64,000 nt of DNA, taken from Sanguibacter sp. HDW7. Lineage in GTDB: Bacteria > Actinomycetota > Actinomycetes > Actinomycetales > Cellulomonadaceae. The stretch's first letter is position 1. The number at the start of each line of letters is the position of its first letter. The notes below the pieces were generated by a model, which saw only the letters and a program-made list of their open reading frames with translations, ran no database searches and was not told the origin of the DNA. The position numbers and the translations under genes are program-made. The DNA lies in contig NZ_CP049862.1 of assembly GCF_011300875.1 (NCBI RefSeq), positions 2,170,001 to 2,234,000 on the forward strand, written 5' to 3'. This document shows, piece by piece, positions 35,635 to 61,200 of this stretch.

Positions 35635-35765
35635 GGTCTTCTCCCTGGCTGCGGTGCTGGGACTGCTCTGACTGCTGGCGGGGCCTTCGCCGGATGCGGC
35701 TGCGGCCCCGGTCTCACGGTGGTGAGCGTCGATCCTCGGGTGGCGCCGCTGAGGGTTCAGCGGCA

Positions 35766-35806
35766 AGAAAAAACCCCTCGAGCCCGGGTGGGGGCCATGC
35801 GAGGGG
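35766..35806 (-). terminator. Attenuator terminator in the ilvB leader
   Basis: On the minus strand, CCCCUCG (35806-35800) pairs with CGAGGGG (35780-35774) around a GC-rich loop that can extend the stem, followed by UUUUUUCUU. It lies between the leader peptide and ilvB. Confidence 0.75.
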
Positions 35807-35821
35807 AGAGCGCGCGAGAAC

Positions 35822-35840
35822 GACCGGGATGTGGCCGGTC
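35822..35840 (-). other. 1:2 hairpin of the ilvB attenuator
   Basis: GACCGG and CCGGTC (35822-35827 with 35835-35840) form a hairpin that overlaps the leader peptide stop codon, where a ribosome stalled on Ile/Leu/Val codons would alter folding. Confidence 0.5.
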
Positions 35841-35880
35841 AGGCCGCGCGCCCGGGAAGTACTACGAGGATCGTCTGCAC
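35839..35880 (-). CDS. ilvB leader peptide
   Basis: GTG 35880 encodes MQTILVVLPGRAA, then TGA. Five of residues 4-8 are Ile-Leu-Val-Val-Leu, the exact three amino acids made by the operon. This is the pattern of the transcription-attenuation peptides known for ilvB in Corynebacterium and Streptomyces. Confidence 0.85.
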   Translation of the reverse strand: MQTILVVLPGRAA

Positions 35881-35887
35881 GAGCGCC

Positions 35888-35917
35888 ACCCTACGCCCGG
35901 GGCGGCGCCCGTGTCAC
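35888..35917 (-). promoter_or_regulatory. ilvBNC promoter
   Basis: GTGACA (complement of 35912-35917), 18 bases, and TAGGGT (complement of 35888-35893). The -10 ends 7 bases before the leader peptide GTG, so transcription would begin at or near that codon and the leader would be leaderless. Confidence 0.55.
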
Positions 35918-35936
35918 ATACGGGTCGCCGCGGTCT

Positions 35937-35953
35937 CACGGTCCGGGACCGTG
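35937..35953. promoter_or_regulatory. Palindrome upstream of the ilvB promoter
   Basis: CACGGTCCGGGACCGTG is a perfect 8-bp inverted repeat around one base, 20 bp upstream of the -35, between ilvB and the divergent histidine kinase gene. Confidence 0.4.
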
Positions 35954-36050
35954 TGGTCCAGGTCACGGAGCGCTGCCCTCCCCGCGGCGGGGACCGGGTT
36001 CCTCCTCACGGCGGTGGTGGCGACGACGACGACGCGAGTTGGATCGAACC

Positions 36051-37382
36051 ATGACCACCACACAGGCTCTCCCCACGGCCGCCGCCCCCGCTCCTCCCAC
36101 CTCCACCCGGCTGCGGCGGCTCCCCGCTGCCCGCCCCGCCCCGCCCCGTCTCCTCACCGGAGTCGCGGCCCTCTCGAGCCTCGGCGTCCTCGTCACGGGC
36201 GTCTCCCTCCTCGCGACGCGCTGGCGCGCCGCGCTCGGCAGCGACGCCACCGCCGCCGACGGGGCGGCCTGGACCGAAGGCTCCAGCCTCTGGGCGCTGG
36301 TGCTGCCGGCCGCGGGCCTGCTGTGGATGGTCGCCGCGATCTGGGTCGCACGGACCCGGCCCGTCGTCGCTGCGGGCATGGCCCTCCTCGTCATCGTTCC
36401 GCCGCTGACCGTCGAGTTCGTCGACATCGCCTGGTGGGGGGCGGCGGTGGCTGCGGCCCTCGTCGGAGGCCTCGCGGCCGCCCGCCGGTCCTGGGTCCCG
36501 CTCGCCACGGCGTCCGGCCTCGCGGTCGTCGGGACCCTCGCGGCGGCACTGGGCGGCAGGTCCGATCTGGGTGCGCCCGCATGGCTCGTCGCTCCCGGCG
36601 GCGCGCTCTCCCCCGTCCGGGACGCCGTCGTCGGCTACGTGCTCCCCGTCGCCGTCGTCGCCGTCGTCATCCTCACCGTGCGCGCCCTCCTGGACGCCTG
36701 GGCAGCCCGAGACGCCTCGGTCGCCGCGGCCACGCGCGCCGAGTCCCGTCGTCTCGACGACGGCCGACGCGCCGAGATCGCACGCGACCTCCACGACGTC
36801 GCCGCCCACCACCTCTCGCTCGTCGCCGTGCGCGCCGAGTCCCTGCGCTACGCGACGCCCGACCTCACCGCGCGCACGCGCGACGAGCTGGCGCTCGTCG
36901 CCGAGGGCGCCCGTGCCGCACTCACCGAGCTGCGGCGCTCCCTCGACCTCCTGGCGCCGGACGGCCACGACGCGCCGCTCTCCCCGCCGCCGACGGCTCT
37001 CGACCTCCTCAGCCTCGTCTCCGGCGCGCAGGACGCGGGCCAGCAGATCGACGCGCACCTGCCCGCGGACGTCGACGACCTGCTCGCCCGCGTCCACGAC
37101 CGCACGGGTCACGCCCTCTTCCGGATCGCCCAGGAGTGCCTGACGAACGCTCGCCGTCACGCACCGTCCGCCCCGGTGACGTTGGAGCTCTCGGAGCTCG
37201 ACGGGATGCTGCGACTCACCGTGAGCAACCCGGCGACCGCCACCCCGGGGACCACCCGCCGCGGACTGTCAGGCATGTGGGATCGGGCCGCCCAGGTCGG
37301 CGGCACCGCCGGCACGGAGCTCGTCGACGGGCGTTTCGTCGTCGAGGTCACCCTGCCCCTCGTGCCCACCGACGTCCCGTGA
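36051..37382 (+). CDS. NarL-type sensor histidine kinase
   Basis: A 443-residue membrane kinase. About six hydrophobic segments lie between residues 35 and 215, with little outer domain. A HisKA_3 domain follows, with phospho-acceptor H248 in EIARDLHDVAAHHLSLVAV, and then an HATPase_c domain with RIAQECLTNARRHAPSAPV (N-box) and GLSGMWDRAAQVGG. The ligand is unknown, and the kinase may sense membrane stress like LiaS/DesK relatives. It is followed by its response regulator and is divergent from ilvBNC. Confidence 0.88.
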   Translation: MTTTQALPTAAAPAPPTSTRLRRLPAARPAPPRLLTGVAALSSLGVLVTGVSLLATRWRAALGSDATAADGAAWTEGSSLWALVLPAAGLLWMVAAIWVARTRPVVAAGMALLVIVPPLTVEFVDIAWWGAAVAAALVGGLAAARRSWVPLATASGLAVVGTLAAALGGRSDLGAPAWLVAPGGALSPVRDAVVGYVLPVAVVAVVILTVRALLDAWAARDASVAAATRAESRRLDDGRRAEIARDLHDVAAHHLSLVAVRAESLRYATPDLTARTRDELALVAEGARAALTELRRSLDLLAPDGHDAPLSPPPTALDLLSLVSGAQDAGQQIDAHLPADVDDLLARVHDRTGHALFRIAQECLTNARRHAPSAPVTLELSELDGMLRLTVSNPATATPGTTRRGLSGMWDRAAQVGGTAGTELVDGRFVVEVTLPLVPTDVP

Positions 37383-37432
37383 GCGTCATGGCGCCCGGCG
37401 CCACGGGCCGGGCGCCCTGGCAGGATGACCTC

Positions 37433-38128
37433 GTGACCGCTCCCGACACCGCTGCCGCACCTGGTTCCGCAGGCGCACCCGTGCGCGTCGTCCTCGCGGA
37501 CGACCAGCCGGTCATCCTCCACGGCCTCGCCGCGATCCTCGCGGCGACGCCCGGCATCGAGGTCGTCGGCACGGCGGCCGACGGCGCAGAGCTCGTCGAC
37601 CTCGTCGCCCGCACCTCCCCCGACGTGGCACTCGTCGACGTCCGCATGCCGCACGTCGACGGCATCGAGGCGACGCGACGCGTCACCGCGTCGAGGGCGA
37701 GGACGCGGGTCGTCATCCTCACGACCTTCGACCTCGACGAGTACGTGTACGACGCGCTGCGGGCCGGGGCGAGCGGCTTCCTCCTCAAGGACGTCACCGC
37801 CGAGCGTCTCGTCGAGGCGGTGCGGCTCGTCGCCGAGGGGTCGATGCTCCTCGGCCCGGGCGTCACGCGGCGCCTCGTCACGGACGTCGCGACGCGGCAG
37901 CCGGCACCGCGCGTCGTGCCGGGCCTCGCCGATCTCACGCCGCGCGAGCGCGAGGTGTTCGCAGCGGTCGCTCGCGGGCTGTCGAACGCGGAGATCGCGG
38001 CCGAGCAGTGGGTGAGCGAGCCGACGGTGAAGTCGCACGTCTCGGAGATCCTCCGCAAGACGGGGTGCCGCGACCGGGTGCAGCTCGTCGTCGCGGCCTA
38101 CGAGTCGGGCTCGGTCACGGCAGGCTGA
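37433..38128 (+). CDS. NarL/LuxR-family response regulator
   Basis: A 231-residue regulator: receiver domain with VRVVLADDQPVI and phospho-acceptor D69 in SPDVALVDVRMPHVDG, K near 118 in GFLLKDV, and a C-terminal LuxR HTH (LTPREREVFAAVARGLSNAE, then VSEPTVKSHVSEILRKTG). GTG 37433 has AGGA upstream; an alternative start at GTG 37379 would overlap the kinase stop by 4 bp and add 18 residues. It pairs with the kinase just upstream. Confidence 0.9.
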   Translation: MTAPDTAAAPGSAGAPVRVVLADDQPVILHGLAAILAATPGIEVVGTAADGAELVDLVARTSPDVALVDVRMPHVDGIEATRRVTASRARTRVVILTTFDLDEYVYDALRAGASGFLLKDVTAERLVEAVRLVAEGSMLLGPGVTRRLVTDVATRQPAPRVVPGLADLTPREREVFAAVARGLSNAEIAAEQWVSEPTVKSHVSEILRKTGCRDRVQLVVAAYESGSVTAG

Positions 38129-38134
38129 GCCCTC

Positions 38135-39061
38135 TCACCAGGTCTCGGCGCCCTCGAGGGTCGTCGGCGGCGGGTCGACGCCGAGCCACGAGCGCAGACG
38201 CGTGAGGTCGAGCGTCCGCTCGACCGCGAGGTGGCTGAGCGCGTAGCGGCTGAGCCGTGAGCGCGGCAGCCCGCACGCGGCCGCGCCGTCGAGGAGTCCC
38301 GCGAGGCCGTGCGCGAGACGTGGCGGGACCTCGAGCACGCGCAGCGACCCGCCCTCCGGGCCGCGGTGCCCGCGCCGCTCGAGGAGCTCGAGGACCGCGC
38401 GACGCAAGGGCCACGGCTCGGCGTCAGCGACGTTGACGACGCCCGTGACGTCGCTCGTCAGACCCGCCCGGACGGCGGCGACGAACGTGTCGACGTGCGT
38501 GAAGGAGTGCAGCGCCTTGCCGTCGCCGACGAGAGGGACGCGGCCGCGTCGCACGAGCCCCTCGACGCGAGGCAGGAGCGTCGTGTCGCCCGGCCCGTAG
38601 ACGGCGTGGGGCCGCAGCACGAGCACGGGTCCGAGGTCGGCGCCGGCGAGGTAGCGCTCGGCGGCGGCCTTCGTCGCACCGTACGCGTTGAGGTGGCGGT
38701 CCGGCAGGGGCGAGTCCTCGCGCCCGACGACGGTCGGCACGCGCGGGTCGTAGACGCTCGCGGACGACACGTGGACCATGCGGGCGCCCGCGAAGGTCTC
38801 GCGCACGGCGCGCGTGCCGTCGACGTTGATCCGTGCCGCCGCCCCGTGGCTGCCCCCGTCGGCGACCGCTGCCCCGACGTGGACGACCGCGTCGACGTCG
38901 GGCGGGTCCGCGAGCGCCCCGCCGGCAAGGTCCCACTCCCGCCAGGTCCCGACGCCCGCAGGGCGGCGCGAGAACGCGTGGACGTCATGACCGTCGGCGA
39001 CGAGCGCGCGGGCGACGGCACCCCCGACGAAGCCTGACGCCCCCGTCACCGCGACGCGCAC
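38135..39061 (-). CDS. OleD-like NAD(P)-dependent 2-alkyl-3-oxoalkanoate reductase
   Basis: A 308-residue extended short-chain dehydrogenase. The dinucleotide motif TGASGFVGG is at residues 6-14 and the active site is Y127/K131 in NAYGATKAAAERY, with S99-S100 in MVHVSSASVY. It resembles OleD and 3-beta-hydroxysteroid dehydrogenase/NAD epimerases, which reduce the 2-alkyl-3-keto acid made by OleA to the hydroxy acid. Its ATG overlaps the AMP-ligase stop by 16 bp and it is last in the operon. An unrelated sugar epimerase role is possible, but the neighbours favour OleD. Confidence 0.65.
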   Translation of the reverse strand: MRVAVTGASGFVGGAVARALVADGHDVHAFSRRPAGVGTWREWDLAGGALADPPDVDAVVHVGAAVADGGSHGAAARINVDGTRAVRETFAGARMVHVSSASVYDPRVPTVVGREDSPLPDRHLNAYGATKAAAERYLAGADLGPVLVLRPHAVYGPGDTTLLPRVEGLVRRGRVPLVGDGKALHSFTHVDTFVAAVRAGLTSDVTGVVNVADAEPWPLRRAVLELLERRGHRGPEGGSLRVLEVPPRLAHGLAGLLDGAAACGLPRSRLSRYALSHLAVERTLDLTRLRSWLGVDPPPTTLEGAETW

Positions 39062-40920
39062 GCGCAGGCCTCCCCCTCCGCTGACGCGACCCCGGCGGGA
39101 TCCTCGAGGCCCGCTCCCCGACGTCGGACACGACCCGCGCGCGCCTGCGCGACGTGCTCCGCGACCGCGCGGGCGAGCCCGGCGCGGTCAGGCTTACGGC
39201 TGCGTCCCGCGACGGGCACCGCCGGGGCGACGAGCACGACGTCGGGCAGCGCCCCGTGGTCGAGGACGTCCGCGAGCAGCGGCCGCACCGCGTCCGCGAG
39301 CGGGTGCGTGCACACGAGCCGGTCCGGCCGCGAGCCCGCGTTCGACGGGACGACGACGAGCGCGACCTCCTCGTCACCGTCCTCGCGCGGCAGCCCGACA
39401 AGTACCGCCTCGCCGACGCCCGTGAGCGCCGCGAGCCGCGGCTCGAAGAGCGCCGGGTAGATGTTCACCGTGCCGCGGATGATCATGTCGCGCGTCCGAC
39501 CGAGCAGCACGAGCGTGCCGTCGGGGTCGACGCGGGCGAGGTCGCCCGTGCGGTGCTCGGCCACGGGGACTACCTCTCCGGACTCGCCGAGCAGGCCGAG
39601 CATGAGGGCGGGCCCGGAGACGACGAGCTCGCCGACAGCACCGGGCGCGACGTCGGGCACAGCGCCGTCGGGCGCAGCGCCGTCCGGCACAGCGCCGTCC
39701 GGCACAGCGCCGTCCGGCACAGCGCCGTCGGGCACAGCGTCGTCGGGCACGACCCGCACCGCCACCGTGCTCACGGCCGTCCCGACGAGGTCGCCGTCGC
39801 CCGCGTGCGCAAGCTTGGCCGGTGCCTCGACGGACGCGACGGGCAGGCACTCGGTCATGCCGTAGATCCCGACCCACCGCGTTCCCGGGAGGAGCCGCGT
39901 CGCTCGCGTGAGCAGCGCGCGCGTCACGGGTGCGCCGCCGACGAGCACCGTCGATGCGGTCCGGGCGGGGACGGCGCCGGCCTCGATCGCGTCGAGCAGC
40001 CCGGTGACGTCGGAGGGGACGAGGAAGGTGACGTCGGCGCCCGTGAGGAGGCGCCCGGCCGTGACGACGTCGCGGGCGGGCGCGACGACGGGGACGGTCC
40101 ACGTCGCCCCGGCGAGGAGTGCGGGCACGCCGAGGAGCATCTGGTCGGTGACGACGTCCTGGCCGGGCGTGAGGTCGACGATCTCGCCGAGCGTGCGCGT
40201 CGCGGCTGCGAGCGTCGCTCCGGAGTGGACGACGGCGCGGGGCGCGGCCGTCGTCCCGGACGTGAAGACGACGAGCATGGGGGCGCGCGGGTCGGGCGGC
40301 GGCAGGTCACCGGCGAGGCGGTGCGAGGCCGCGGGTGCGGCGCTCCCCCGCCGCAGCCGCGCGACGGGGACCGACCCGCGCGGAACCCCGGGCAGCCACG
40401 GCCCTGAGTGCACGTGCGTGACCGGCAGCGTGGCGTAGCCCGGCAGCGCGAGCCCGCGACTCCGCGCGACGGCTCGCAGCGGACCGCGCGAGAGCGCGTG
40501 GAGGAGCGACTCGGTCGCCGCGTGCGTCGGCCGGGCCGCCCGCACCCGGGCCGCGAAGAGCTCGGGCGTCGAGCCGGGGTCGACGAAGACGACGGTCCCG
40601 CCGGCGCGCGCGATGCCGAGCGCGGTGACGATGCCGTCGAGACGCGGCCGGATCGAGAAGAGGACGCGTCCGCCCGGCTCGAGCCCGCGGGAGCGCAGGC
40701 CGCGTGCGACGGCCTCGATGCGGTCGGCGAGCTCGCGGAACGTCAGTGCGCGGAATCGCTGGGGCCGCCCGCGCCGGGTGCGTCGGGGCACACGGAGCGC
40801 GACGGCGTCAGGCGTCCGCGCGCACGCGTCGAGGACGAGCGTGACGAGGTGCGCGTCGACGCCGCCTGAGCCGTCGTCCGACACGGTCGGCGCGGGACCG
40901 CAGGCCTCGGCGCCGTTCAC
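39046..40920 (-). CDS. OleC-like AMP-dependent synthetase/ligase
   Basis: A 624-residue adenylate-forming enzyme. The A3 motif is VFTSGTTAAPRAV, A5 YGMTECLP, A7 EHRTGDLARVDPDG and A8 GRTRDMIIRGTVNIYP. A basic tail ends with GRSRKPDRAGL, holding a candidate catalytic lysine. OleC enzymes use ATP to turn a 2-alkyl-3-hydroxy acid into a beta-lactone. The GTG start overlaps the P450 stop by 4 bp. Between A5 and A7 sits an inserted run of AVPDG repeats coded by a 15-bp tandem repeat. Plain acyl-CoA ligase activity is the alternative. Confidence 0.68.
   Translation of the reverse strand: MNGAEACGPAPTVSDDGSGGVDAHLVTLVLDACARTPDAVALRVPRRTRRGRPQRFRALTFRELADRIEAVARGLRSRGLEPGGRVLFSIRPRLDGIVTALGIARAGGTVVFVDPGSTPELFAARVRAARPTHAATESLLHALSRGPLRAVARSRGLALPGYATLPVTHVHSGPWLPGVPRGSVPVARLRRGSAAPAASHRLAGDLPPPDPRAPMLVVFTSGTTAAPRAVVHSGATLAAATRTLGEIVDLTPGQDVVTDQMLLGVPALLAGATWTVPVVAPARDVVTAGRLLTGADVTFLVPSDVTGLLDAIEAGAVPARTASTVLVGGAPVTRALLTRATRLLPGTRWVGIYGMTECLPVASVEAPAKLAHAGDGDLVGTAVSTVAVRVVPDDAVPDGAVPDGAVPDGAVPDGAAPDGAVPDVAPGAVGELVVSGPALMLGLLGESGEVVPVAEHRTGDLARVDPDGTLVLLGRTRDMIIRGTVNIYPALFEPRLAALTGVGEAVLVGLPREDGDEEVALVVVPSNAGSRPDRLVCTHPLADAVRPLLADVLDHGALPDVVLVAPAVPVAGRSRKPDRAGLARAVAEHVAQARAGRVRRRGAGLEDPAGVASAEGEACACASR
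39652..39750. repeat. 15-bp tandem repeat coding for VPDGA units
   Basis: Six and a half copies of GTCGGGCACAGCGCC, with the three central copies identical to each other, inside the OleC-like gene. It encodes AVPDGAVPDGAVPDGAAPDG on the minus strand. Confidence 0.9.
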
Positions 40921-42140
40921 GCCGTCACCACGAGCTCGCGGTAGGCGGGGATGAGCACGCGTCGCGCGACGGTGCGCCGCACGACGTGGACGGACCGGCC
41001 TGCCGCGGCGACGGGGGCGAGCGCGGCGAGCACGGAGTCGATCTGCGCCATGGCGAGCGGCATGCCGAGGCAGAAGTGCGGGCCGGCCCCGAACCACAGC
41101 TGGCGCACGGCGGGCGCCGAGTCGACCGAGGGGTCGAAGGGACCGGCACCCCGGCAGCACGAGATCGTCACGACGACGACCCTGTCCCCCGGGCGCACGC
41201 GCACCCCGGCAACCTCACGCTCGGCCGTCACGGAACGCAGCATGACGGGCGTCGGCACGGCTGTGCGCAGCGCCTCCTCGACGACGCGGCCGCGCCAGCG
41301 GTCGGTCGTCGCCGAGGCGAGCAGGCGGTCGAGCACGCCCGCGTCGTGCGCGATCGCCACGAGCCGCGGCACGAACGACTGGACGGTCTCGGTGCCCGTG
41401 AGGACGAACGCGCCGACAGCCCCCATCGCCTCACGCTCGGAGAGCCCGAGCTCACGCATACGGCCGGGCACGGTGTCCGTCCCACCGTCGCGGTAGGCGG
41501 CGCGCGCGGGCTCGCTCAGCTCGTCGAGCACGGTGCGGGCGCGGGCGACCTGCGACCGGGTGAGCCCGCGCCGATGGAGGCGGACGAGCCCGACGATCTC
41601 CTGGGCCCTGCGGAGCTGCTCACGCACGGCGTCGCCCGTGTCGCCGAGGCCGACGAGGTGGCAGATGAGCGAGCCCGCCATCTCCCCGACGACGGGCACG
41701 AGGTCGACCCGCTCCCCTGCGAGCAGCTGCTCGGCGAGCCCGTCGAGACGCGCCGACCGGGTCGCCGTGAGGGCGCGCACGGACGACGGCGTGAAGAGCG
41801 GCGCGAGCGTGCGCCGCAGCGCGGCGTGCTCGGCACCCTCCATGTTGAGCAGGACGGACGGACCGAGAACGGGCGTCCACAGCTCTGCGGGCGAGCCCGG
41901 CCCGACCTTCGAGAACCCCTCGGTGTCGAGGAGCACGGCCCGCGCGGTCGCGGCGTCGGAGACGACGACGCCGAGCCCCGGCACGCGCACCGCGGCACGG
42001 TTGCGCAGGGCCCGCAGCGCGGGATAGGCGAACGGGTGGGCACCGCGCTGCACGCGCTCCTCGTGGAAGAGGACCTCGTCGTCGGCGTCGCACACGACCT
42101 GTGCGACCTGCGCGGCGCGGGCGACGTCCTCGACGCTCAC
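40917..42140 (-). CDS. Cytochrome P450 (first)
   Basis: A 407-residue heme monooxygenase. The heme motif FGAGPHFCLG puts the axial ligand at Cys 357, the I-helix oxygen-activating motif is LTGTETVQSF, and the ExxR pair is in VVEEALRTAVPT. Starting at GTG 42140, it overlaps the glycosyltransferase stop by 4 bp and the ligase start by 4 bp. It lies inside the Ole-like operon, so a long-chain intermediate or product is a plausible substrate (inferred). Ferredoxin and reductase are not encoded nearby. Confidence 0.88.
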   Translation of the reverse strand: MSVEDVARAAQVAQVVCDADDEVLFHEERVQRGAHPFAYPALRALRNRAAVRVPGLGVVVSDAATARAVLLDTEGFSKVGPGSPAELWTPVLGPSVLLNMEGAEHAALRRTLAPLFTPSSVRALTATRSARLDGLAEQLLAGERVDLVPVVGEMAGSLICHLVGLGDTGDAVREQLRRAQEIVGLVRLHRRGLTRSQVARARTVLDELSEPARAAYRDGGTDTVPGRMRELGLSEREAMGAVGAFVLTGTETVQSFVPRLVAIAHDAGVLDRLLASATTDRWRGRVVEEALRTAVPTPVMLRSVTAEREVAGVRVRPGDRVVVVTISCCRGAGPFDPSVDSAPAVRQLWFGAGPHFCLGMPLAMAQIDSVLAALAPVAAAGRSVHVVRRTVARRVLIPAYRELVVTA

Positions 42141-42946
42141 CGGATGTCCACGTGCTCGGGCCGGTAGCGGTGGTCGGCGTACCAGCCGAGCGTCCGGACC
42201 AGCCCCCACGCAGCCACACGACGCGTCGAGCCGCGCACGAGCACGTCGTCGTACGTCGCGTAGCGCGTCGTGAGCCGGCGGACGGCGTTGACGAGCGCAC
42301 GGTCCTCGTGGATGTCCTCGATCGCGGTGCGCGGGAAGCCTCCTGCGCGGACGTAGAGGTCCGCGGTGACGGCCATGTTGCAGCCCGCGGACATCATGTA
42401 CGGCCCGAGGTAGCCGTCGTCCTGGTTGCCGGGACGGACCTTGCCGAACGCCCCCGCGAGCGCGACAGCCCCGTTGAGCAGGGCGGTGCGCGGACGGGAG
42501 ACGGGCAGGTCGTCGGTGCGCGGCACGAGGCGCCCCGCGACGAGCTCGGACAGCGCGAGCGCACGGCGCACGGCCGCGGTCCAGCCGGGGTCGGGCAGGC
42601 AGTCGGCGTCGGTCCGGGCGAGGAGAGCGGCGCCCGCGTCGGCGGCCGCACGCATGCCCGTGTCCGCCGCCGCACCCGTCCCCTTCTGCACCTCGACGAC
42701 GACGCGCCAGCGGTGCATGCCGTGCCAGGCGGCGTACTCGCGCACGACGTCGCCCGTGCCGTCCGAGGACCCGTTGTCGACGACGACGAGGTCGAAGTCG
42801 GTGTCGTGCTGGGCTCGCAGCGCGTCGAGCGTCGCGGCGATGCCCGCGGCCTCGTCGCGCGCGGGTACGACGACACCGAGCCGCCCGGGCGCGGGGTGCG
42901 TGCCCGCCGTCGAGCGGACGCGACCGCCGGGGCGCGGCGGCCTCAC
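42137..42946 (-). CDS. Family 2 glycosyltransferase
   Basis: A 269-residue soluble GT-A enzyme. The nucleotide-sugar domain begins LGVVVPARDEAAGIAATLDA, then VVVDNGSSDGTGD, with the metal motif DAD in RTDADCLPDPGW (about residue 113) and an acceptor-site TAIEDIHED. No membrane helices are present. It is the second gene of the operon, with its GTG overlapping the KASIII stop by 4 bp. It may glycosylate the cluster product or an acyl carrier lipid; the sugar is unknown. Confidence 0.8.
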   Translation of the reverse strand: MRPPRPGGRVRSTAGTHPAPGRLGVVVPARDEAAGIAATLDALRAQHDTDFDLVVVDNGSSDGTGDVVREYAAWHGMHRWRVVVEVQKGTGAAADTGMRAAADAGAALLARTDADCLPDPGWTAAVRRALALSELVAGRLVPRTDDLPVSRPRTALLNGAVALAGAFGKVRPGNQDDGYLGPYMMSAGCNMAVTADLYVRAGGFPRTAIEDIHEDRALVNAVRRLTTRYATYDDVLVRGSTRRVAAWGLVRTLGWYADHRYRPEHVDIR

Positions 42947-44016
42947 AGGCGTACCAGGGTCGCGCCGATCGAGATGCCGCCCGCAAGGCCGAGCAGCAGG
43001 ACGACGTCGCCGTCCCGGACCCGGCCGCTCTCGCGGGCACGGACGAGCTGGAGCGGGAGCGTCACGGAGGCGACGTTGCCGTGGTCGGCGACCGTGACGA
43101 GCGTGCGGTCGCGCGGCAGGCCGAGCGCGTCGTGGACGTCGTCGAGGTAGGCGACGGCGACCTGGTGGACGGCGACGAGCGCGACGTCGTCGAGCGTGAG
43201 GCCCGCCCGCTCGAGCGCCTCGTGGACGGTTCCGGGGCCGAGCGCGCAGAACGCGTCGCGCAGACGCCCGCCGTCGATCTCGAAGTAGGTGCGCTCGACG
43301 TCGCGCGGGTGCGCGGTGCCGCCGCCGGGGAGCATGCCGACGTCCCAGTGCTCGGAGCGGGCGGAGAACGCGCTCGCGAGGATGCCACGCGGCGCTTCAT
43401 CGGGCCCTGTGGCCGGCGGGAGGCCCACGAGCACCGCGGCGCCCGCGTCGGACATCGTGTACCCCGGCGCGGAGAGCGCGTACGTCGCCCGGTCGGGCAC
43501 GTCGTGACGCACGGCGCGCGAGGGGGCCTCGCCCGACGCCACGAGGACGGTGCGGTAGCGGCCCGTCGCGACGAGAGCCTCGGCGACCTCGATCCCGTTG
43601 AGCACCGAGTTGCACGCGTTCTTGACGTCCATGACGGGCACGGTGTCGAGGCCGAGCTTGTGGGCGACGATGTGCGACGTCGCGGGCTCGACCATGTCCT
43701 GGCTCGCCGAGGCGAAGATCAGCAGGTCGACCCGCGTGCCCGGGTGCTCGGCGAGGAGCGTCCGGGCGGCCGCGACCGCGAGGTCGGACGCGTCCTCGCC
43801 GTCGGGCAGCACGTGGATGCGCCGCACCCCGGTGAGCCGCGTGACGAGCGGAGTGCGCGGGGCGATCCCGGGGTTGCGGCGCGCAAGCTCGCGCTCGACG
43901 TCGGCGACCTTGCGGACGTCGTCAGGCAGGTGCACGGCGACGCCGAGGATCGCGGCGGCCGGGGCCGGGCGCACGGGCCCCGCGACGGGCGTCGGGGTGA
44001 GGAGCGGCTGGAGCAT
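42943..44016 (-). CDS. OleA-like thiolase / ketoacyl synthase III
   Basis: A 357-residue thiolase-fold enzyme. The Cys-His-Asn triad is C135 (VMDVKNACNSVLNG), H284 (VAVHQVAVAYLDD) and N314 (VADHGNVASVTLPL). E110 in DMVEPATSHIVAH sits 25 residues before the cysteine, close to the spacing of the special glutamate in OleA that promotes head-to-head condensation of two acyl-CoAs. First gene of the five-gene operon. FabH-like acyl condensation is the alternative. Confidence 0.72.
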   Translation of the reverse strand: MLQPLLTPTPVAGPVRPAPAAAILGVAVHLPDDVRKVADVERELARRNPGIAPRTPLVTRLTGVRRIHVLPDGEDASDLAVAAARTLLAEHPGTRVDLLIFASASQDMVEPATSHIVAHKLGLDTVPVMDVKNACNSVLNGIEVAEALVATGRYRTVLVASGEAPSRAVRHDVPDRATYALSAPGYTMSDAGAAVLVGLPPATGPDEAPRGILASAFSARSEHWDVGMLPGGGTAHPRDVERTYFEIDGGRLRDAFCALGPGTVHEALERAGLTLDDVALVAVHQVAVAYLDDVHDALGLPRDRTLVTVADHGNVASVTLPLQLVRARESGRVRDGDVVLLLGLAGGISIGATLVRL

Positions 44017-44132
44017 GGCGGTCAGCGTAGCGGGCGCTCCCCTGGTCCGCGCCTGGTTCTGGATGATGGCGCACCGACCGACACCTGTGGACAGCCTGGT
44101 CGAGATCCCTGCCGTCCGGCAGACTCTCGCGG

Positions 44133-45338
44133 GTGACGACACGTTCCGAGCTGGCGCTCCTCACACGCGCGCGTCCCGCGATGGCCGCGGTCCTCCTCGG
44201 CGGGCGCGCGCTGCGCCGTCCGCTCGCCAAGGTCCCAGGCCTCGGCTGGGTGACATCGGACCCCGTCGTGAGCCGCGAGATCCTCAAGGACGGCCGCTCC
44301 TTCACGATCCTCGACGAGGGCGGCGTCGGACACCTGTGGGGCCAGATCCTCGGCGACTGGGTGTTCGAGCTCTTCGACGGGCCCGGCCACCACGACCTGC
44401 GCACGCGCGCCCGCGACCTCTTCACGAAGGCGACGGCGACGGAGATCGTCGACGACGCGTGGGGCCCGTCGTTCGCCGCTGCCCGGGCGACGCTCGCCTC
44501 GGGCGGAACCCTCGACGTCGGCCCGCTGACGCGCACGCTCGTCGGCCGCATGATGACGACGATCCTCGGCATCGTGCCGCCCGCAGGGCGCACGTCGGAG
44601 GCGCCGTGGCCGACGGACGCCGAGGCGCTCGAGACGTTCCGCACGGGTGAGCGGCTCGCGTCGGTCGCGCTCGGCACGGGCTCCTCGACGCACCTGTCCC
44701 CCGACCAGGTCGCGGCCGCGCGCAGCATCGTCGCCGAGCTCACCTCAGGCGTGCCCGACGGCTGGGCGCACGCGCCGTCCCACCTGCTGCTCGGCCGCTG
44801 CCGCGAGCTCGGGCTCAGCCTCGAGGAGACGACGGGCATCGCGAGCCTCCTCATGGTCGCGGGCACCGAGACGTCCGCGAGCGCGATGGCACGCACGACC
44901 GCGCTGCTCGTCGACACCGGCGAGCAGACGCGGCTCCTCGCGGCGCTCGCGCGCGGCGAGGACCCGTGGGAGGACGTCGTGCGCGAGGGCCTGCGCGTCA
45001 CGAGCCCCGCGTCGGTCATCGGACGGGGCGTCGCCGCGGACGTCGAGGTCGCGGGCCGCACGCTGCGCGCGGGCGAGCGCGTGATGATGCTCGTGTGGAG
45101 CGCCAACACCGCTCCCGGCCCGTTCCGCATCGACCGCCCCTACGTCGCGGAGAACCGCCAGCTGTGGTTCGGCGCGGGGCGTCACCTGTGCCTCGGCGCG
45201 GCGCTCGCACGCGCCGAGCTCGAGCACCTGCTCCGCACCCTCTTCGAGGACGGCCCGCTCGAGATCGTGCGGCGCCGCGCGCAGCCTCGCGTCCTCGTCC
45301 CGACCTATCGGACGCTCGAGGTCCGCCGGGCGCGCTGA
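44133..45338 (+). CDS. Cytochrome P450 (second, divergent)
   Basis: A 401-residue P450 with heme motif FGAGRHLCLG (Cys 353), I-helix motif VAGTETSASAM and ExxR in VREGLRVTSP. It starts at GTG 44133, 116 bp from the OleA-like start on the other strand, so the two units probably share control. Its heme-loop sequence differs from the first P450, suggesting a separate reaction. It closes the cluster and is followed by the palindromic repeats. Confidence 0.87.
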   Translation: MTTRSELALLTRARPAMAAVLLGGRALRRPLAKVPGLGWVTSDPVVSREILKDGRSFTILDEGGVGHLWGQILGDWVFELFDGPGHHDLRTRARDLFTKATATEIVDDAWGPSFAAARATLASGGTLDVGPLTRTLVGRMMTTILGIVPPAGRTSEAPWPTDAEALETFRTGERLASVALGTGSSTHLSPDQVAAARSIVAELTSGVPDGWAHAPSHLLLGRCRELGLSLEETTGIASLLMVAGTETSASAMARTTALLVDTGEQTRLLAALARGEDPWEDVVREGLRVTSPASVIGRGVAADVEVAGRTLRAGERVMMLVWSANTAPGPFRIDRPYVAENRQLWFGAGRHLCLGAALARAELEHLLRTLFEDGPLEIVRRRAQPRVLVPTYRTLEVRRAR

Positions 45339-45526: not shown

Positions 45527-47227
45527 TCAGCTGAGGACCGCGCCCTGCGACGCCGAGCCCACGAGCTTCTGGTAGCGCCCGAGCACGCCCTTCGTGAAGC
45601 GCGGCGGCAGCGGCGCCCAGCCCTCGCGGCGCGCCTCGAGCTCGCTCGCGTCGACGAGCAGGTCGAGCGTCCCGGCCGCGACGTCGAGCCGCACCCTGTC
45701 GCCGTCGCGCACGAACGCGACGGGCCCGCCGTCGACGGCCTCGGGCGCGACGTGCCCGACGCACAGGCCCGTCGTCCCGCCGGAGAACCTGCCGTCCGTG
45801 AGCAGGAGGACGTCCTTGCCGAGCCCGGCTCCCTTGATCGCGCCGGTGATCGCGAGCATCTCGCGCATGCCGGGACCGCCCTTGGGGCCCTCGTAGCGGA
45901 TGACGACGACGTCGCCCGCGACGATCGTGCCGTCCTCGAGGGCATCCATCGCGGCGCGCTCGCGCTCGAAGACGCGTGCGGTGCCCTCGAAGACGTCGGA
46001 GTCGAAGCCGGCCGACTTCACGACCGCGCCGTCGGGCGCCAGGGAGCCCGAGAGGATCGTGATGCCACCCGTGCGGTGGATCGGCCGGTCGAGGGCGCGC
46101 AGGATCTTCCCGTCGGGGTCGGGCGGGTCGATGTCGGCGAGGTTCTCCGCGACGGTGCGGCCGGTGACGGTGAGGCAGTCGCCGTGGAGCAGCCCCGCGT
46201 CGAGCAGGGCCTTCATGACGACGGGGACGCCGCCGACCCGGTCGACGTCGGCCATGACGTAGCGGCCGAAGGGCTTGAGGTCGCCGAGGTGCGGCACGCG
46301 CGCGGCGACGCGCCGGAAGTCGTCGAGCGTGAGGTCGACCTCGGCCTCGTGCGCGATCGCCAGGAGGTGGAGGACCGCGTTCGTCGAGCCGCCGAACGCC
46401 ATGACGACGGCGATCGCGTTCTCGAGCGCGTCCTTCGTCATGATGTCGCGCGCCGTGATGCCCCGGCGCAGGAGTCCGACGACGGCCTCCCCCGAGCGCT
46501 GGGCGAAGTGGTCGCGCCGGCGGTCGGCGGACGGCGGCGCTGCGGAGCCCGGCAGCGACATCCCCATGGCCTCGGCGACCGACGCCATGGTGTTCGCGGT
46601 GTACATGCCGCCGCACGCGCCCTCGCCGGGGCAGATCGCACGTTCGATGCGGTCGACGTCCTCGACGCTCATGAGCCCGCGCGAGCACGCGCCGACGGCC
46701 TCGAACGCGTCGATGAGCGTGACGTCCTTCTCGGTGCCGTCGGAGAGCTTCACCCAGCCCGGCATGATCGAGCCCGCATAGAGGAACACCGCCGCGAGGT
46801 CGAGCCGCGCCGCCGCCATGAGCATGCCCGGGAGCGACTTGTCGCACCCGGCGAGCAGGACCGAGCCGTCGAGCCGCTCGGCCATCATCACCGTCTCGAC
46901 GGAGTCCGCGATGACGTCGCGCGAGACGAGCGAGTAGTGCATGCCCTCGTGGCCCATCGAGATGCCGTCGGACACGGAGATCGTGCCGAACTCGAGCGGG
47001 TAGCCGCCGGCAGCATGGACGCCGTTCTTCACGGCGGCGCCGAGCCGCTGGAGCGAGAGGTTGCACGGCGTGATCTCGTTCCACGAGCTCGCGACGCCGA
47101 TCTGCGGCTTGACCCAGTCGTCGTCCCCCATGCCGACGGCACGGAGCATCCCGCGCGAGGCCGTGGCCTCGAGCCCGTCGGTCACCTGGCGCGAACGTGG
47201 CTTGACGTCGATCTCAGAGGCATCCAT
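45527..47227 (-). CDS. ilvD: Dihydroxy-acid dehydratase, [2Fe-2S]-type
   Basis: A 566-residue enzyme of valine/isoleucine synthesis that dehydrates 2,3-dihydroxy acids to 2-oxo acids. Three cluster cysteines are visible: C55 (EITPCNLSL), C128 ([10 protein letters not shown]) and C205 ([11 protein letters not shown]). This three-cysteine set is that of the mycobacterial and plant-like [2Fe-2S] class, including the length. It starts at ATG 47227. A separate ilvD of another class lies 113 bp upstream. Confidence 0.88.
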
Positions 47228-47340: not shown

Positions 47341-49203
47341 TCAACGGCGCGCGATGAGCGAGACGTCGCGCACGGCACCGCGGTCCGCGGACGTCGCCAT
47401 CGCGGCGTACGCGCGCAGCGCCGGGGAGACGTAGCGGTCGCGGGCGACCGGCTGCCACGGGTTCTCCGAGGCCTCCATCTTGGCGCGACGCTCCGCGAGG
47501 ACGTCGTCGGGAACGTCGAGGTGGACTCGACGCGTGTCGACGTCGATCTCGATGCGGTCACCGTTCTCGACGAGCCCGATGACGCCACCGGCCGCGGCCT
47601 CGGGCGAGACGTGACCGATCGAGATGCCCGAGGAGCCGCCCGAGAAGCGTCCGTCGGTGATGAGCGCGACGCTCTTGCCGAGCCCACGGCCCTTGATGAA
47701 CGACGTCGGGTAGAGCATCTCCTGCATGCCGGGGCCGCCCGCGGGGCCCTCGTAGCGCACGACGAGGACGTGGCCCAGCAGGACCTCCTTCGAGAGGATC
47801 TTCTCGACGGCCTCGTCCTGGGACTCGACGACGAGCGCGGTCCCGACGAAGTGGAAGACGTCCGGGTCGACGCCGGCGGTCTTGAAGACCGCGCCGTCCT
47901 CGGCAAGGTTGCCGCGGAGCACCGCGAGACCGCCCTCGACCGTGTACGCGTGCTCGAGGTCGCGGATGCAGCCGTTCGCCGCGTCGGTGTCGAGGGACTC
48001 CCAGACGTTCGACGTCGAGAAGGCCTGCGTCGTGCGCACGCCGCCGGGCGCCGCGAGGAAGAGGTCCTTCGCGGTGTCGGTGGCCTTGCCGCCGCGGATG
48101 TCCCAGTCGTCGAGCCACGCGCGCAGCGTCGGCGTGTGGACGCTCGTGACGTCGTGGTCGAGCAGGCCCGCACGGTCGAGCTCGCCGAGGAGAGCGGGGA
48201 TGCCACCCGCGCGGTGGACGTCCTCCATGTGGTAGTTCGGGTGGTTGGGCGCAACCTTCGACAGGCACGGCACGCGACGCGAGATCGTCTCGATGTCGGT
48301 GAGCGTGAAGTCGAGCTCGGCCTCCTGCGCGGCGGCGAGGATGTGCAGGACCGTGTTCGTCGAGCCGCCCATCGCGACGTCGAGCGTCATCGCGTTGGCG
48401 AACGCAGCCTTCGTCGCGATCGAGCGCGGAGCCGCCGAGTCGTCCTCGTCCTCGTAGTAGCGGCGGGCGAGGTCGACGATCGTGCGGCCGGCCTCGAGGA
48501 AGAGCTCCTTGCGGGCCGTGTGCGTCGCGAGCGTCGAGCCGTTGCCGGGCAGCGAGAGGCCGAGGGCCTCCGTGAGGCAGTTCATCGAGTTGGCCGTGAA
48601 CATGCCCGAGCACGAGCCGCACGTCGGGCACGCCGACTCCTCGACCTTGGCGAGGGCCTCGTCCGAGACGTTGTCGTCGGCCGCGTAGTTGATCGCGTTG
48701 ACGAGGTTGAGGTGCGTCTTCGCGACGCCGTCGGCGACGACCGCCTTGCCGGCCTCCATGGGCCCACCGGAGACGAAGATCACCGGGATGTTGAGGCGCA
48801 GCGCGGCGTTGAGCATGCCGGGCGTGATCTTGTCGCAGTTGGAGATGCAGACGATCGCGTCGGCGCAGTGCGCGTTGACCATGTACTCGACGGAGTCGGC
48901 GATGAGGTCGCGGCTCGGCAGCGAGTAGAGCATGCCGCCGTGGCCCATCGCGATGCCGTCGTCGACCGCGATCGTGTTGAACTCCTTGGACACGCCGCCG
49001 GCCTCGCGGATCGCGGAGGCGACGAGGTCGCCCATGTCCTTGAGGTGGACGTGACCCGGGACGAACTGCGTGTAGGAGTTCGCGATCGCGATGATCGGCT
49101 TCCCGAAGTCCTCCGACCCCATGCCGGTCGCGCGCCACAGGGCGCGGGCCCCGGACATGTTGCGGCCGTGGGTGGACGTGCGGGAGCGCAGTGGGCGGCT
49201 CAT
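47341..49203 (-). CDS. ilvD: Dihydroxy-acid dehydratase, Escherichia coli-like [4Fe-4S] type
   Basis: A 620-residue dehydratase matching the IlvD of enterobacteria in length (about 616) and motifs: [50 protein letters not shown]. It lacks the first cysteine of the [2Fe-2S] class, having [10 protein letters not shown] instead. ATG 49203 has GGAG 9 bases upstream. Hence this strain has two non-identical IlvD enzymes side by side, both leftward and separated by a terminator. Confidence 0.9.
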
Positions 49204-49340
49204 GTCGGTGGTGCTCCTTCGACGCGAACGATGCGGCGAGCGCCGCCGCACCACCGTACGTCTCCCGCAGCGGTGCAGGTCGCACGCGTCCGCAGCGTGG
49301 TCGTCCGACGACCTGCCCAACGCGTCCGGCCGGGTCCGTG

Positions 49341-49643
49341 CTAGGACGCGACCTCGACGCCGTGCTCCCGGACGACCTCCGCGAGCTCGAGCGCCAGGTC
49401 GACGTCCGCGCTCGTCAGCGCGTCGACCTCGTGCGTGAGGAGCCGCAGCTCGACCCACGGGTACGTGAGCGTGACGTCGGGGTGGTGATTCGCGGCCTCG
49501 GCCGCGCCCGCGACGAGCTCGACGAGGCGCACGCCCGCGACGAAGCTCCCGGTCGCGTACCTGATGACGAGCTGGCCGTCGACGACCTCCCAGCCGGTCC
49601 CGGCGACCGCCTGCTCGACGCGTTCGATCTCGAGAGGTTCCAT
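49341..49643 (-). CDS. 4a-hydroxytetrahydrobiopterin dehydratase
   Basis: A 100-residue pterin-4a-carbinolamine dehydratase with the active-site motif [17 protein letters not shown]. It regenerates tetrahydropterin or acts as a DCoH-like protein. I chose ATG 49643 because the resulting length is normal for the family, but GGAGG is very close to it; GTG 49676 upstream would add 11 residues. It is monocistronic. Confidence 0.82.
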
Positions 49644-49830
49644 GCCTCCAGCCAACCACCGCGGCGGCTCCCCCACCAGCGGTCGTCCACCCAGGCCGCG
49701 AGGCGCCGCGCGGCGCAGGGCGCGGTAGTTCCCAGCAGGACGGGTCTCGGCGCTGCGAGTATCGGCACGTCGCGATCCAGCAGGACGGGCTCAACACCAC
49801 TGGCTCAGCACCACAGGCCCGAGAACGACG

Positions 49831-49862
49831 ACGGCGCCGCACCCCGTGGGGTGCGGCGCCGT
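49831..49862 (-). terminator. Hairpin after the acetyltransferase gene
   Basis: ACGGCGCCGCACCCC (49831-49845) and its complement (49848-49862) form a perfect 15-bp stem, starting 20 bp past the stop of the gene to its right. Confidence 0.7.
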
Positions 49863-53970: not shown

Positions 53971-55251
53971 ATGAGAAGGCTCCTCACCCGCGTCGCCGCG
54001 CTGCTGGGCGCGGCGACGCTCGCGGTCGCTCTGCTGCCGGCGACGCAGAGCGCCGTGGCCGCGACCGACGGCTTCAGCGTCTCGGGCGGACGGATCTACG
54101 ACGCCCGCGGCGTCGAGTTCGTGCCGCAGGGCATCAACCACGCCCACGCCTGGTACCCGTCGCAGACGGGCTCGTTCGCGGATATCCGCGCCGCCGGCGC
54201 CAACACGGTGCGCGTCGTGCTCTCGGGCGGCCGCTACACACCCAGCACGGTCTCCGACGTCGCTGACGTCGTCGCCCGCTGCCGCGCCAACCAGCTCGTG
54301 TGCATCCTCGAGAACCACGACACGACGGGGTACGGCGAGGACGGATCCGCACGCTCGCTCGCGCAGGCCGCGCAGTTCTGGACGCAGGTCCGCAGCGCGC
54401 TCGTGGGCCAGGAGGCCTACGTGATGATCAACATCGGCAACGAGCCGTTCGGCAACAGCGGCTACCAGTCCTGGGCCTCCGACACGATCTCAGCGATCAG
54501 CACGCTGCGTCATGCCGGCCTGCGGCACACGATCGTCGTCGACGCCCCGAACTGGGGCCAGGACTGGTCCGGCACCATGAAGGCCGACGCGCCCCGCGTC
54601 GCCACCGCTGACGGCAACACCGTCTTCTCGATCCACATGTACGGCGTCTACGACACGGCCGCAGAGGTCACGTCGTACATCGACTCCTTCCGCAGCCGGG
54701 GCCTGGCGCTCATGGTCGGCGAGTTCGGCGACGCGCACTCGGACGGCAACCCCGACGAGGCGACGATCATGCGGTACACGCGGACCACCGGCGTCGGCAT
54801 GCTCGGTTGGTCGTGGTCCGGCAACGGCAGCGGGGTCGAGTACCTCGACATGGCGAACAACTTCGACGCCGGCCGCCTCACCTCGTGGGGACAGCGCTTC
54901 ATCAACGGCACCGACGGCCTCAAGGCGCGCGCACCCAAGGTCGCCTCCGTCTACTCAGGCGGGACCGTCGATCCGACGAACCCTCCGACCGAGACGGGCG
55001 GCATCGCCCCGAACGGCTACCCCTACTGCACGAGCGGGTCGAGCGACCCGGACGGCGACGGGTGGGGCTGGGAGAACAACCGCTCCTGCGTGGTGCGCGG
55101 GTCGGCTCCGGACACCGGATCGAGCAGCGGCGCGACGGCTCCGAACGGCTACCCGTACTGCGCGAGCGGGTCGAGCGACCCCGACGGCGACGGCTGGGGC
55201 TGGGAGAACAACCGCTCCTGCGTCGTCCGCGGTTCCGCGGCCGCTCGTTGA
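53971..55251 (+). CDS. Secreted GH5 beta-mannanase with two CBM10-like repeats
   Basis: A 426-residue extracellular hydrolase. The signal peptide is residues 1-31 (cleavage near AVA-AT). The GH5 subfamily 8-like catalytic domain at about 33-325 has acid/base E158 in NIGNEPFG and nucleophile E251 in LMVGEFGDAH. Two near-identical modules of about 33 residues (PNGYPYC-S-GSSDPDGDGWGW, ending ENNRSCVVRGSA) lie at the C-terminus, joined by a Thr/Ser/Gly linker. They resemble CBM10 and would bind cellulose or mannan. The true substrate (mannan or other beta-glycan) needs assay. Confidence 0.85.
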   Translation: MRRLLTRVAALLGAATLAVALLPATQSAVAATDGFSVSGGRIYDARGVEFVPQGINHAHAWYPSQTGSFADIRAAGANTVRVVLSGGRYTPSTVSDVADVVARCRANQLVCILENHDTTGYGEDGSARSLAQAAQFWTQVRSALVGQEAYVMINIGNEPFGNSGYQSWASDTISAISTLRHAGLRHTIVVDAPNWGQDWSGTMKADAPRVATADGNTVFSIHMYGVYDTAAEVTSYIDSFRSRGLALMVGEFGDAHSDGNPDEATIMRYTRTTGVGMLGWSWSGNGSGVEYLDMANNFDAGRLTSWGQRFINGTDGLKARAPKVASVYSGGTVDPTNPPTETGGIAPNGYPYCTSGSSDPDGDGWGWENNRSCVVRGSAPDTGSSSGATAPNGYPYCASGSSDPDGDGWGWENNRSCVVRGSAAAR

Positions 55252-55467: not shown

Positions 55468-55479
55468 GCGAATGAATGT

Positions 55480-55596
55480 CCGGCAGCGTCCTACTCTCCC
55501 ACCCCGTCACCAGGGCAGTACCATCGGCGCTATGAGGCTTAGCTTCCGGGTTCGGAATGGGACCGGGCGTTTCCCTCACGCTATGACTGCCGAAAC
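55480..55596 (-). rRNA. rrf: 5S ribosomal RNA
   Basis: About 117 nucleotides, transcribed leftward. The 5' GTTTCGGCAGTCATAGCGTG, conserved CCCATTCCGAACCCGGAAGC and the 3' CTGCCGGAC end are recognised on the minus strand. End positions are approximate. Confidence 0.92.
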
Positions 55597-55666
55597 TCTA
55601 TGGGGTTATCAACACACCGGTGATGACCCGGGAACCGCACAGTGGACGCGTAGCATAAAAACTGTT

Positions 55667-60708
<5,042 letters not shown>

Positions 60709-61200
60709 ATGTCTAGCGCCAGCCCCGAAGGACTAACAACCATACGAAGCGAACCCGAAGGTTCAAATAAACTGGCAATGACCGACTCATGTCGGTCCAT
60801 TCCAAAGGAATCTCAACGATCAGGCACCGGGTCGCCATGTAGCGGCCGGCATCCCTCTCGCACGAGAGTTATTTGGCATTGACTATCAAGCACACTGTTG
60901 AGTTCTCAAGGAACAGACGCGCATCCTCGCTCTTCCCTTGCGGGTCCTGCTCGGAGGCAACCGTTCAAACTTACCCCGTTCGCTTCCCCGTGTCAAACTC
61001 GGTCTGTCCGACCGTGTTCGAGCTGCGGAAGTACCCGCGCCCTCCACGCGCACCGAATGACCCGGAGTTCCGGGAGCCGGTGAAGGTGGGTGGCTGAGCC
61101 TCGGCGGTTCGGCCCGGGATCTTCATCCCGTTCCTTCGCCCTGCCGGGCTGGCTCGAAGAACATTACACGTGCCCCGGCACCGACGCCAAATCGGCATGA
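60709..61200 (-). promoter_or_regulatory. rRNA operon leader and two candidate promoters
   Basis: On the minus strand, P1 has TTGGCG (complement of 61185-61190), 18 bases, TAATGT (complement of 61161-61166). P2 has consensus TTGACA (complement of 60991-60996), 17 bases, TAAGTT (complement of 60968-60973). The rest is leader RNA, including GAGAACTCAACAGTGTGC near 60895, which resembles the spacer element. No protein gene was seen in this stretch. Confidence 0.65.

Follow-up and report, generated by a model that had tools for sequence, protein, structure and literature searches.

Ole-type gene clusters without an oleB gene have been described before. For Actinoplanes atraurantiacus, the accessible part of a 2020 report in mBio (PMC7064751) lists OleA, a glycosyltransferase, OleC, a cytochrome P450 and OleD, with no oleB in the genome, and predicts a hydroxylated, glycosylated beta-lactone as the product. 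According to the same part of the report (PMC7064751), the OleA of this cluster was active on a p-nitrophenyl ester and gave no reaction with C8-C16 acyl-CoA, little protein being recovered. The accessible text of PMC7064751 also cites oleACD clusters that likewise are without oleB and have a beta-lactone product, namely those of Nocardia brasiliensis and of Streptomyces toxytricini (lipstatin). Canonical olefin loci of the type oleA-oleBC-oleD also occur in actinobacteria, and fifteen of them (L228-L242) were used here for comparison.

The cluster described here lies in a window of 64,000 nucleotides from Sanguibacter sp. HDW7 (contig NZ_CP049862.1, positions 2,170,001 to 2,234,000) and combines Ole-type genes with a family-2 glycosyltransferase and two P450s. 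Its genes, with the short names used below, and the adjoining regulatory genes are:

35694-38128, plus strand: histidine kinase and LuxR-type response regulator, between the cluster and ilvB (Pfam HisKA_3, Response_reg/GerE)
38135-39061, minus strand: D, OleD-like extended SDR (Epimerase-type), 308 aa, with TGASGFVG and YGATK (best NCBIfam match OleD, tree)
39046-40920, minus strand: C, OleC-like AMP-binding ligase, 624 aa (Pfam AMP-binding, tree, motifs)
40917-42140, minus strand: P450a, cytochrome P450, heme Cys in FGAGPHFCLG (Pfam p450 and motif)
42137-42946, minus strand: GT2, family-2 glycosyltransferase, 269 aa, DAD motif (Pfam Glycos_transf_2)
42943-44016, minus strand: A, OleA-like KAS-III thiolase, 357 aa from ATG (Pfam ACP_syn_III_C/ACP_syn_III, motifs, tree)
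42943-44142, minus strand: open frame of A, reaching back to a GTG at 44142
43687-43689, 43612-43614, 43165-43167 and 43075-43077, minus strand: catalytic codons of A (Glu110, Cys135, His284 and Asn314, respectively)
44133-45338, plus strand: P450b, second P450, divergent, heme Cys in FGAGRHLCLG (Pfam p450)

A first-pass annotation of this DNA had given six genes with these positions and strands and with overlaps of 4 or 16 bases, and this description holds: neighbouring minus-strand genes overlap by 4, 4, 4 and 16 bases, and all six reading frames are open. The domains it had named (thiolase, GT2, two P450s, ligase, reductase) are borne out by Pfam and NCBIfam matches. Expected motifs are present in A (EPA, NACN, HQV, GNV), in GT2 (DAD) and in both P450s (heme cysteine), and C carries TSGTTAAPRA, YGMTECLPVA, RTGD and RKPDR, its P-loop departing from the usual form with Arg in place of Lys. 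A role of the P450s as non-catalytic glycosyltransferase activators was rejected; P450b does match TIGR04515 weakly, at 62.5 bits against a cut-off of 343, but its heme cysteine is retained.

Compared by published description (accessible part of PMC7064751), the A. atraurantiacus cluster resembles the window in bringing homologues of OleA, a glycosyltransferase, a P450, OleC and OleD together in a genome in which OleB was not found. Its listed order (OleA, glycosyltransferase, OleC, P450, OleD) is the one termed type II below, whereas in the window GT2 is followed by the P450 and then by C, and a second P450 is present. The first-pass annotation had regarded the association of P450 and GT2 genes with Ole genes as a combination not known, which is superseded by this 2020 precedent with its similar product prediction, as far as the accessible text of PMC7064751 goes. 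By description in the same text (PMC7064751), lipstatin involves a heterodimeric thiolase pair, LstA/LstB, whereas the window encodes a single thiolase together with P450 and GT2. The olefin loci L228-L242 share homologous thiolase, ligase and reductase as well as the OleA glutamate with the window, but they carry an OleBC frame, in 14 of 15 with a recognised OleB part, and NACL rather than NACN; profiles of GT2, P450a and P450b gave no match at E <= 1e-4 in these 13-kb loci. FabH has its fold and Cys-His-Asn in common with A, but lacks the glutamate, carries an AACA motif and falls on a separate branch. Neither another paper on this gene set nor a reported product for the six-gene set was found in the literature among the matches listed, with limited coverage of subscription papers. 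Clusters of this kind are already known as a prediction (Actinoplanes); new are the arrangement of the genes, the additional P450, the thiolase clade with NACN, the shared GT2 frames and the breadth of occurrence.

ilvD and ilvB flank the stretch that holds the cluster and, next to it, the genes for the histidine kinase and the response regulator. Four other genomes of the genus have no match to A at E <= 1e-30; their ilvD, ilvB and ilvN are consecutive, and no cluster or kinase gene scores above 60 bits in 16 kb at their ilv site. The two regulatory genes are probably part of the same inserted block as the cluster. Of the 13 same-family loci, 9 again have ilvB close by, which indicates a site common to several genera. 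The nearest named relative, among the matches listed, is Flavimobilis rhizosphaerae (L104), with a 95% identical A.

Some further features of the surroundings may be mentioned. Two IlvD-type dehydratases adjoin each other (45527-47227 and 47341-49842), a pair that is also found in the four same-genus genomes without the cluster. A GH5 cellulase with two CBM_10 matches is located at 53971-55251. An rRNA operon on the minus strand (55478-60709; 5S, 23S and 16S at Rfam gathering scores) accounts for the low-GC, ORF-poor stretch of the window.

A match to A at E <= 1e-30 is present in 14 of 59 genomes, the own genome included, all 14 belonging to the same family, and the A profile matches at E <= 1e-50 in 33 of 394 genomes of the class, again with the own genome included. 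A scan of named genomes returned at least 594 candidate stretches, at least 554 of them encoding a relative; the best 80 of these at least 554 were kept, and they partly overlap with the 13 same-family loci. These 80 loci include Cellulosimicrobium, Promicromonospora, Oerskovia, Isoptericola, Salinibacterium and Herbiconiux, and also Lentzea, Saccharopolyspora, Pseudonocardia, Arthrobacter, Actinomadura and Streptomyces (with S. rimosus). The cluster occurs across several actinobacterial families.

Eleven of these best 80 named loci were left out of the gene counts, which cover the 69 with at least 5.5 kb before A and at least 6 kb behind it. P450a is found in 68 of the 69, GT2 and C in 66 each, and D in 65. 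All five genes are present in 63 loci, in the order A-GT2-P450a-C-D in every one of the 63 and on one strand in 62, L171 having its ligase on the other strand. The six incomplete loci lack D (L111, L112, L132) or both GT2 and C (L147, L158), or retain A and a P450b-like P450 only (L163). Among the same-family loci the five genes stand in the same order in 10 of 13; of the other three, L024 and L027 are without D and L021 is truncated where its contig ends. Given the same order in 10 of 13 same-family and 63 of 69 named loci, the six-gene cluster is no chance arrangement, and the P450 and GT2 genes belong with the Ole-type genes in a conserved unit, in line with the first-pass annotation. A P450 matching the P450b profile best occurs in 43 of the 69 loci, upstream and divergent in 24, downstream in 13 and upstream on the same strand in 6; these three different positions indicate that P450b travels with the cluster through rearrangement. 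All-against-all clustering of the neighbouring reading frames, many of which are shadow frames and most families of which are unannotated, yielded no further constant member.

Reading by eye, we noted 13 loci with an ABC-2-type exporter close to A (from Promicromonospora, Myceligenerans and one Antribacter), an ABC/FtsX-type exporter inserted between A and GT2 (L114:10148-13288), and an HNH/DUF222-like element inserted between P450a and C (L129:12289-14505). Six class loci (L090, L091, L092, L094, L098, L101) show the order A-GT2-C-P450-D, termed type II; their P450 is less closely related (117-140 bits), and L094 has a second GT2 as well.

Titles of OleA structures in the PDB name the residues E117, C143 and H285. 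Pairwise alignment with Xanthomonas campestris OleA reveals in A the Cys-His-Asn triad and a glutamate equivalent to OleA E117, and E110, C135, H284 and N314 of A are invariant columns. In a motif survey, olefin OleA displays E/NACL in 16 of 16 rows (X. campestris OleA included), and the clade of A keeps the glutamate in all 35 rows, with NACN in 34 and DACN in one. The pattern EPxx[AS]x(14,18)DxxNACL, used for ole clusters in the accessible part of PMC7158056, does not match A, in which EPATS and D..NAC are present but the cysteine is followed by N instead of L. This exchange beside the nucleophile may go along with different acyl substrates. A thiolase tree that includes 22 rows of FabH and 8 of other KAS-III enzymes (quick search, SH-aLRT support only, several long branches flagged) joins olefin OleA, the A clade and two rows of L298 in one branch of 53 rows with a support of 98. 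Within it, olefin OleA (support 100) and the A clade (97) are separate, so that A stands outside the olefin OleA clade, in the neighbouring one; a tree lacking the other KAS-III enzymes gave no firm branching order for type II, olefin and type I thiolases. The L298 locus carries two tandem KAS-III genes, one with E and NACA, which, as a guess, are possibly an LstA/LstB-like pair.

With the NCBIfam models, D scores about 90-94 bits for OleD (cut-off 580; next paralogue in the genome 76), and C scores 82-84.8 bits for OlefBLtnSynXan (cut-off 900), being the top scorer of its genome with the next at 65; the general model PRK09274 reaches 139 bits at best in the own genome, followed by 125. These narrow gaps indicate that the curated families are too loose to separate C and D cleanly from paralogues of the same genome. 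A profile of the cluster D does separate, with 109-170 bits for OleD against 43-62 for three SDRs of the own genome, while the cluster ligase profile gives OleC 104-163 bits, overlapping with unrelated ligases of the same genome (66-129 bits). In the ligase tree the GT2-bearing types fall together (support 99), as do OleC and the OleB-bearing loci (99); both groups are split from 12 unrelated ligases with a support of 96, and OleC appears to be the nearest group of C. The reductase tree likewise unites the GT2-bearing types (95), and OleD with the OleB-bearing loci (98), and sets GT2-bearing loci, OleD and three loci with a TIGR02304 enzyme (see below) apart from only three unrelated SDRs (98). 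The thiolase tree is in tension with these two: in loci with OleB, the ligase and the reductase join the olefin ones, but the thiolase is placed within the window type. This suggests an exchange of parts or a misplaced long branch of olefin OleA. The Ole-type character of thiolase, ligase and reductase, as put forward in the first-pass annotation, is thus upheld, but membership in the Ole families is not, as all three are sister clades far below the curated cut-offs. The phylogeny of thiolase and ligase, which it had named as a refuting test, places both outside OleA and OleC proper and yet directly adjoining them.

OleB had been reported absent from the window; it was not found in the own genome either (one contig, 3.35 Mb), where the haloalkane dehalogenase family scores 50.8 bits at best (cut-off 241) and a search with OleB from an actinobacterium gave only 21.6 bits over 90 residues. 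A profile built from 14 of the 15 OleBC loci had no match in the flanks of the best 80 of at least 554 named loci or in the 13 same-family loci. It matches 5 of the 28 loci L076-L103, namely L088, L093, L097, L099 and L103, all of which encode an NACN-type thiolase, C, D and OleB without GT2 or P450a and hence are complete Ole sets. The presence of OleB in all five A-C-D loci without GT2, and in none of the loci with GT2, fits GT2 and P450 taking the place of OleB.

Based on this dataset, we lean towards a lipid pathway of its own, Ole-type but lacking OleB, with GT2 and the P450s in the cluster instead, in which the beta-lactone would be kept; we hold this reading to be somewhat more probable than its alternatives taken together. 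In such a pathway A would catalyse the head-to-head condensation of two acyl-CoAs to a 2-alkyl-3-oxo acid, which D would convert to the 2-alkyl-3-hydroxy acid. P450a, together with P450b where present, would hydroxylate an alkyl chain, and GT2 would transfer a sugar onto a hydroxyl. C would adenylate the carboxylate, whereupon the 3-hydroxyl would close the beta-lactone, to be kept because OleB is absent. The most likely product would then be a glycosylated alpha-alkyl-beta-hydroxy acid closed to the beta-lactone by a putative ring closure. The individual reactions, their succession, the sugar, the lengths of the chains and the ring as end product are inferred: the steps of A and D from tree position and catalytic residues, the tailoring from gene presence, and the closure from the kinship of C to OleC.

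In favour of this lactone pathway we count the OleA glutamate and triad, the sister positions in the trees, the complete Ole sets with an NACN thiolase, the failure to find OleB, the conserved gene order and the prediction for Actinoplanes. Against it we count that the curated cut-offs are missed, that FabH ranks first in PDB searches, that ligase profile scores overlap, that the ligases form a separate clade, that the Actinoplanes OleA gave no Claisen product from C8-C16 acyl-CoA (accessible part of PMC7064751), and the NACN motif. GT2 is the best-conserved protein of the cluster, with a mean pairwise identity of 68% in 12 chosen loci compared with 56-61% for the other five. Its model (pLDDT 91) has the mannosyltransferase PcManGT as nearest fold at a TM-score of 0.60, which is too weak for naming a sugar donor.

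The acyl motif of mycolic acids is a 2-alkyl-3-hydroxy acid. The main rival explanation, unlikely in our view, is a mycolate-like glycolipid, for which A and D would make such an acid, C would activate it for a sugar or another acceptor, and GT2 would build the head group, no beta-lactone being released. The outstanding conservation of GT2 would agree with this, and so would the finding that GT2 and the ligase form one stop-free frame in two loci of one genus (L076:10133-12640, 836 residues; L078:7043-9448, 802 residues), which suggests coupled steps. Pfam confirms both domains in the L076 frame, and P450a and D were not found in 20 kb around either frame. However, GT2 also shares one stop-free frame with P450a in L077:9978-12386, L153:9498-11933 and L182:1916-4141. 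GT2 frames continuing into ligase or P450 thus argue for coupled steps in general, which fits a mycolate-like glycolipid as well, but the tie between GT2 and ligase is not special. In support of the glycolipid, the ligases found with GT2 group in a clade of their own, distinct from the ligases that accompany OleB, and the ligase may therefore have another reaction.

Three variant loci also lend the glycolipid some weight. L086 (from the same taxonomic order), and L147 and L158 (Herbiconiux), comprise A, P450a and a divergent D, with no homologue of GT2 or C in the locus. Just before D each encodes an adenylating enzyme of TIGR02304 (F390-synthetase-related; 288.8-363.4 bits, cut-off 251.9), and in L086 a GT21/HpnI-like glycosyltransferase, of another family than GT2, is located between D and A. 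With the TIGR02304 enzyme standing in for the ligase, an adenylating enzyme beside thiolase and reductase is retained, although its family can differ. On the other hand, no acyltransferase was recognised among the recurrent neighbours, most of which are unannotated, OleC appears to be the nearest group of C, and the published prediction, in the accessible text of PMC7064751, favours the lactone.

A bolder proposal, which we regard as rather unlikely, is that the clade has its own pathway, leading to mycolate-like (alpha-alkyl-beta-hydroxy) glycolipids in actinobacteria by a non-mycolate route. GT2 would act as one unit with ligase and P450, and NACN thiolases would be tuned to new acyl partners. 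Such a route would be derived from the olefin pathway, or be ancestral to it, by exchange of OleB for GT2 and P450.

A decarboxylative KAS-III route appears quite improbable. Here A would extend a starter with malonyl-ACP, C would serve as starter acyl-CoA ligase and D as ketoreductase, and a hydroxylated fatty acyl glycoside would result. Similarity searches lend this route some weight, as the best NCBIfam model for A is the general PRK09352 (159 bits, under its cut-off of 249; PRK09258 gives 134.1 bits, under a cut-off of 285), and FabH precedes OleA in PDB searches with the sequence of A (113 vs 73 bits) as well as with the profile (210 vs 184 bits). In pairwise alignments A is 28% identical to OleA of X. 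campestris, compared with 30-34% for two FabH rows from the same genus. The model of A (pLDDT 91) favours FabH by Foldseek E-value (2.1e-30 vs 1.3e-27 for OleA) and OleA by TM-score (about 0.82 vs 0.79), so the fold comparison does not decide. The OleA glutamate, however, is found throughout the A clade and is absent from FabH, which displays T/AACA in 12 of 12 rows; in addition, the genome has its own FabH, and the trees place D and C as sister groups of OleD and OleC. The reading of A as a plain FabH duplicate was rejected on motif and trees together with this separate FabH.

An olefin pathway with an unrecognised, non-homologous decarboxylase, which would open the beta-lactone to an alkene prior to oxidation and glycosylation, is very improbable. 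In its favour, canonical OleA is widespread in the class, 45 of 394 genomes exceeding the PRK09258 cut-off, and each of the 15 canonical loci opened encodes A and D together with a long ligase frame, an OleB part being recognised in 14 of the loci. Against it, no decarboxylase was recognised among the recurrent, mostly unannotated neighbours, and two genomes, G026 (L027) and G423 (L079), carry the cluster in addition to a separate canonical OleA locus, which speaks against mutual substitution. However, D was not found in either of these two clusters, which may borrow OleD from the canonical locus; in L027 the GT2 match is split over two frames.

Returning to the favoured Ole-type lactone pathway and its glycolipid rival, a compact and conserved six-gene set that is present in many actinobacterial families is well suited to a first identification of its chemistry. 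The sister clusters with and without OleB offer a natural comparison for the role of the ligase. If glycolipids are made, the olefin pathway would be convertible into a membrane-lipid or surfactant pathway. If glycosylated beta-lactones are made, the cluster would represent a widespread source of covalent enzyme inhibitors.
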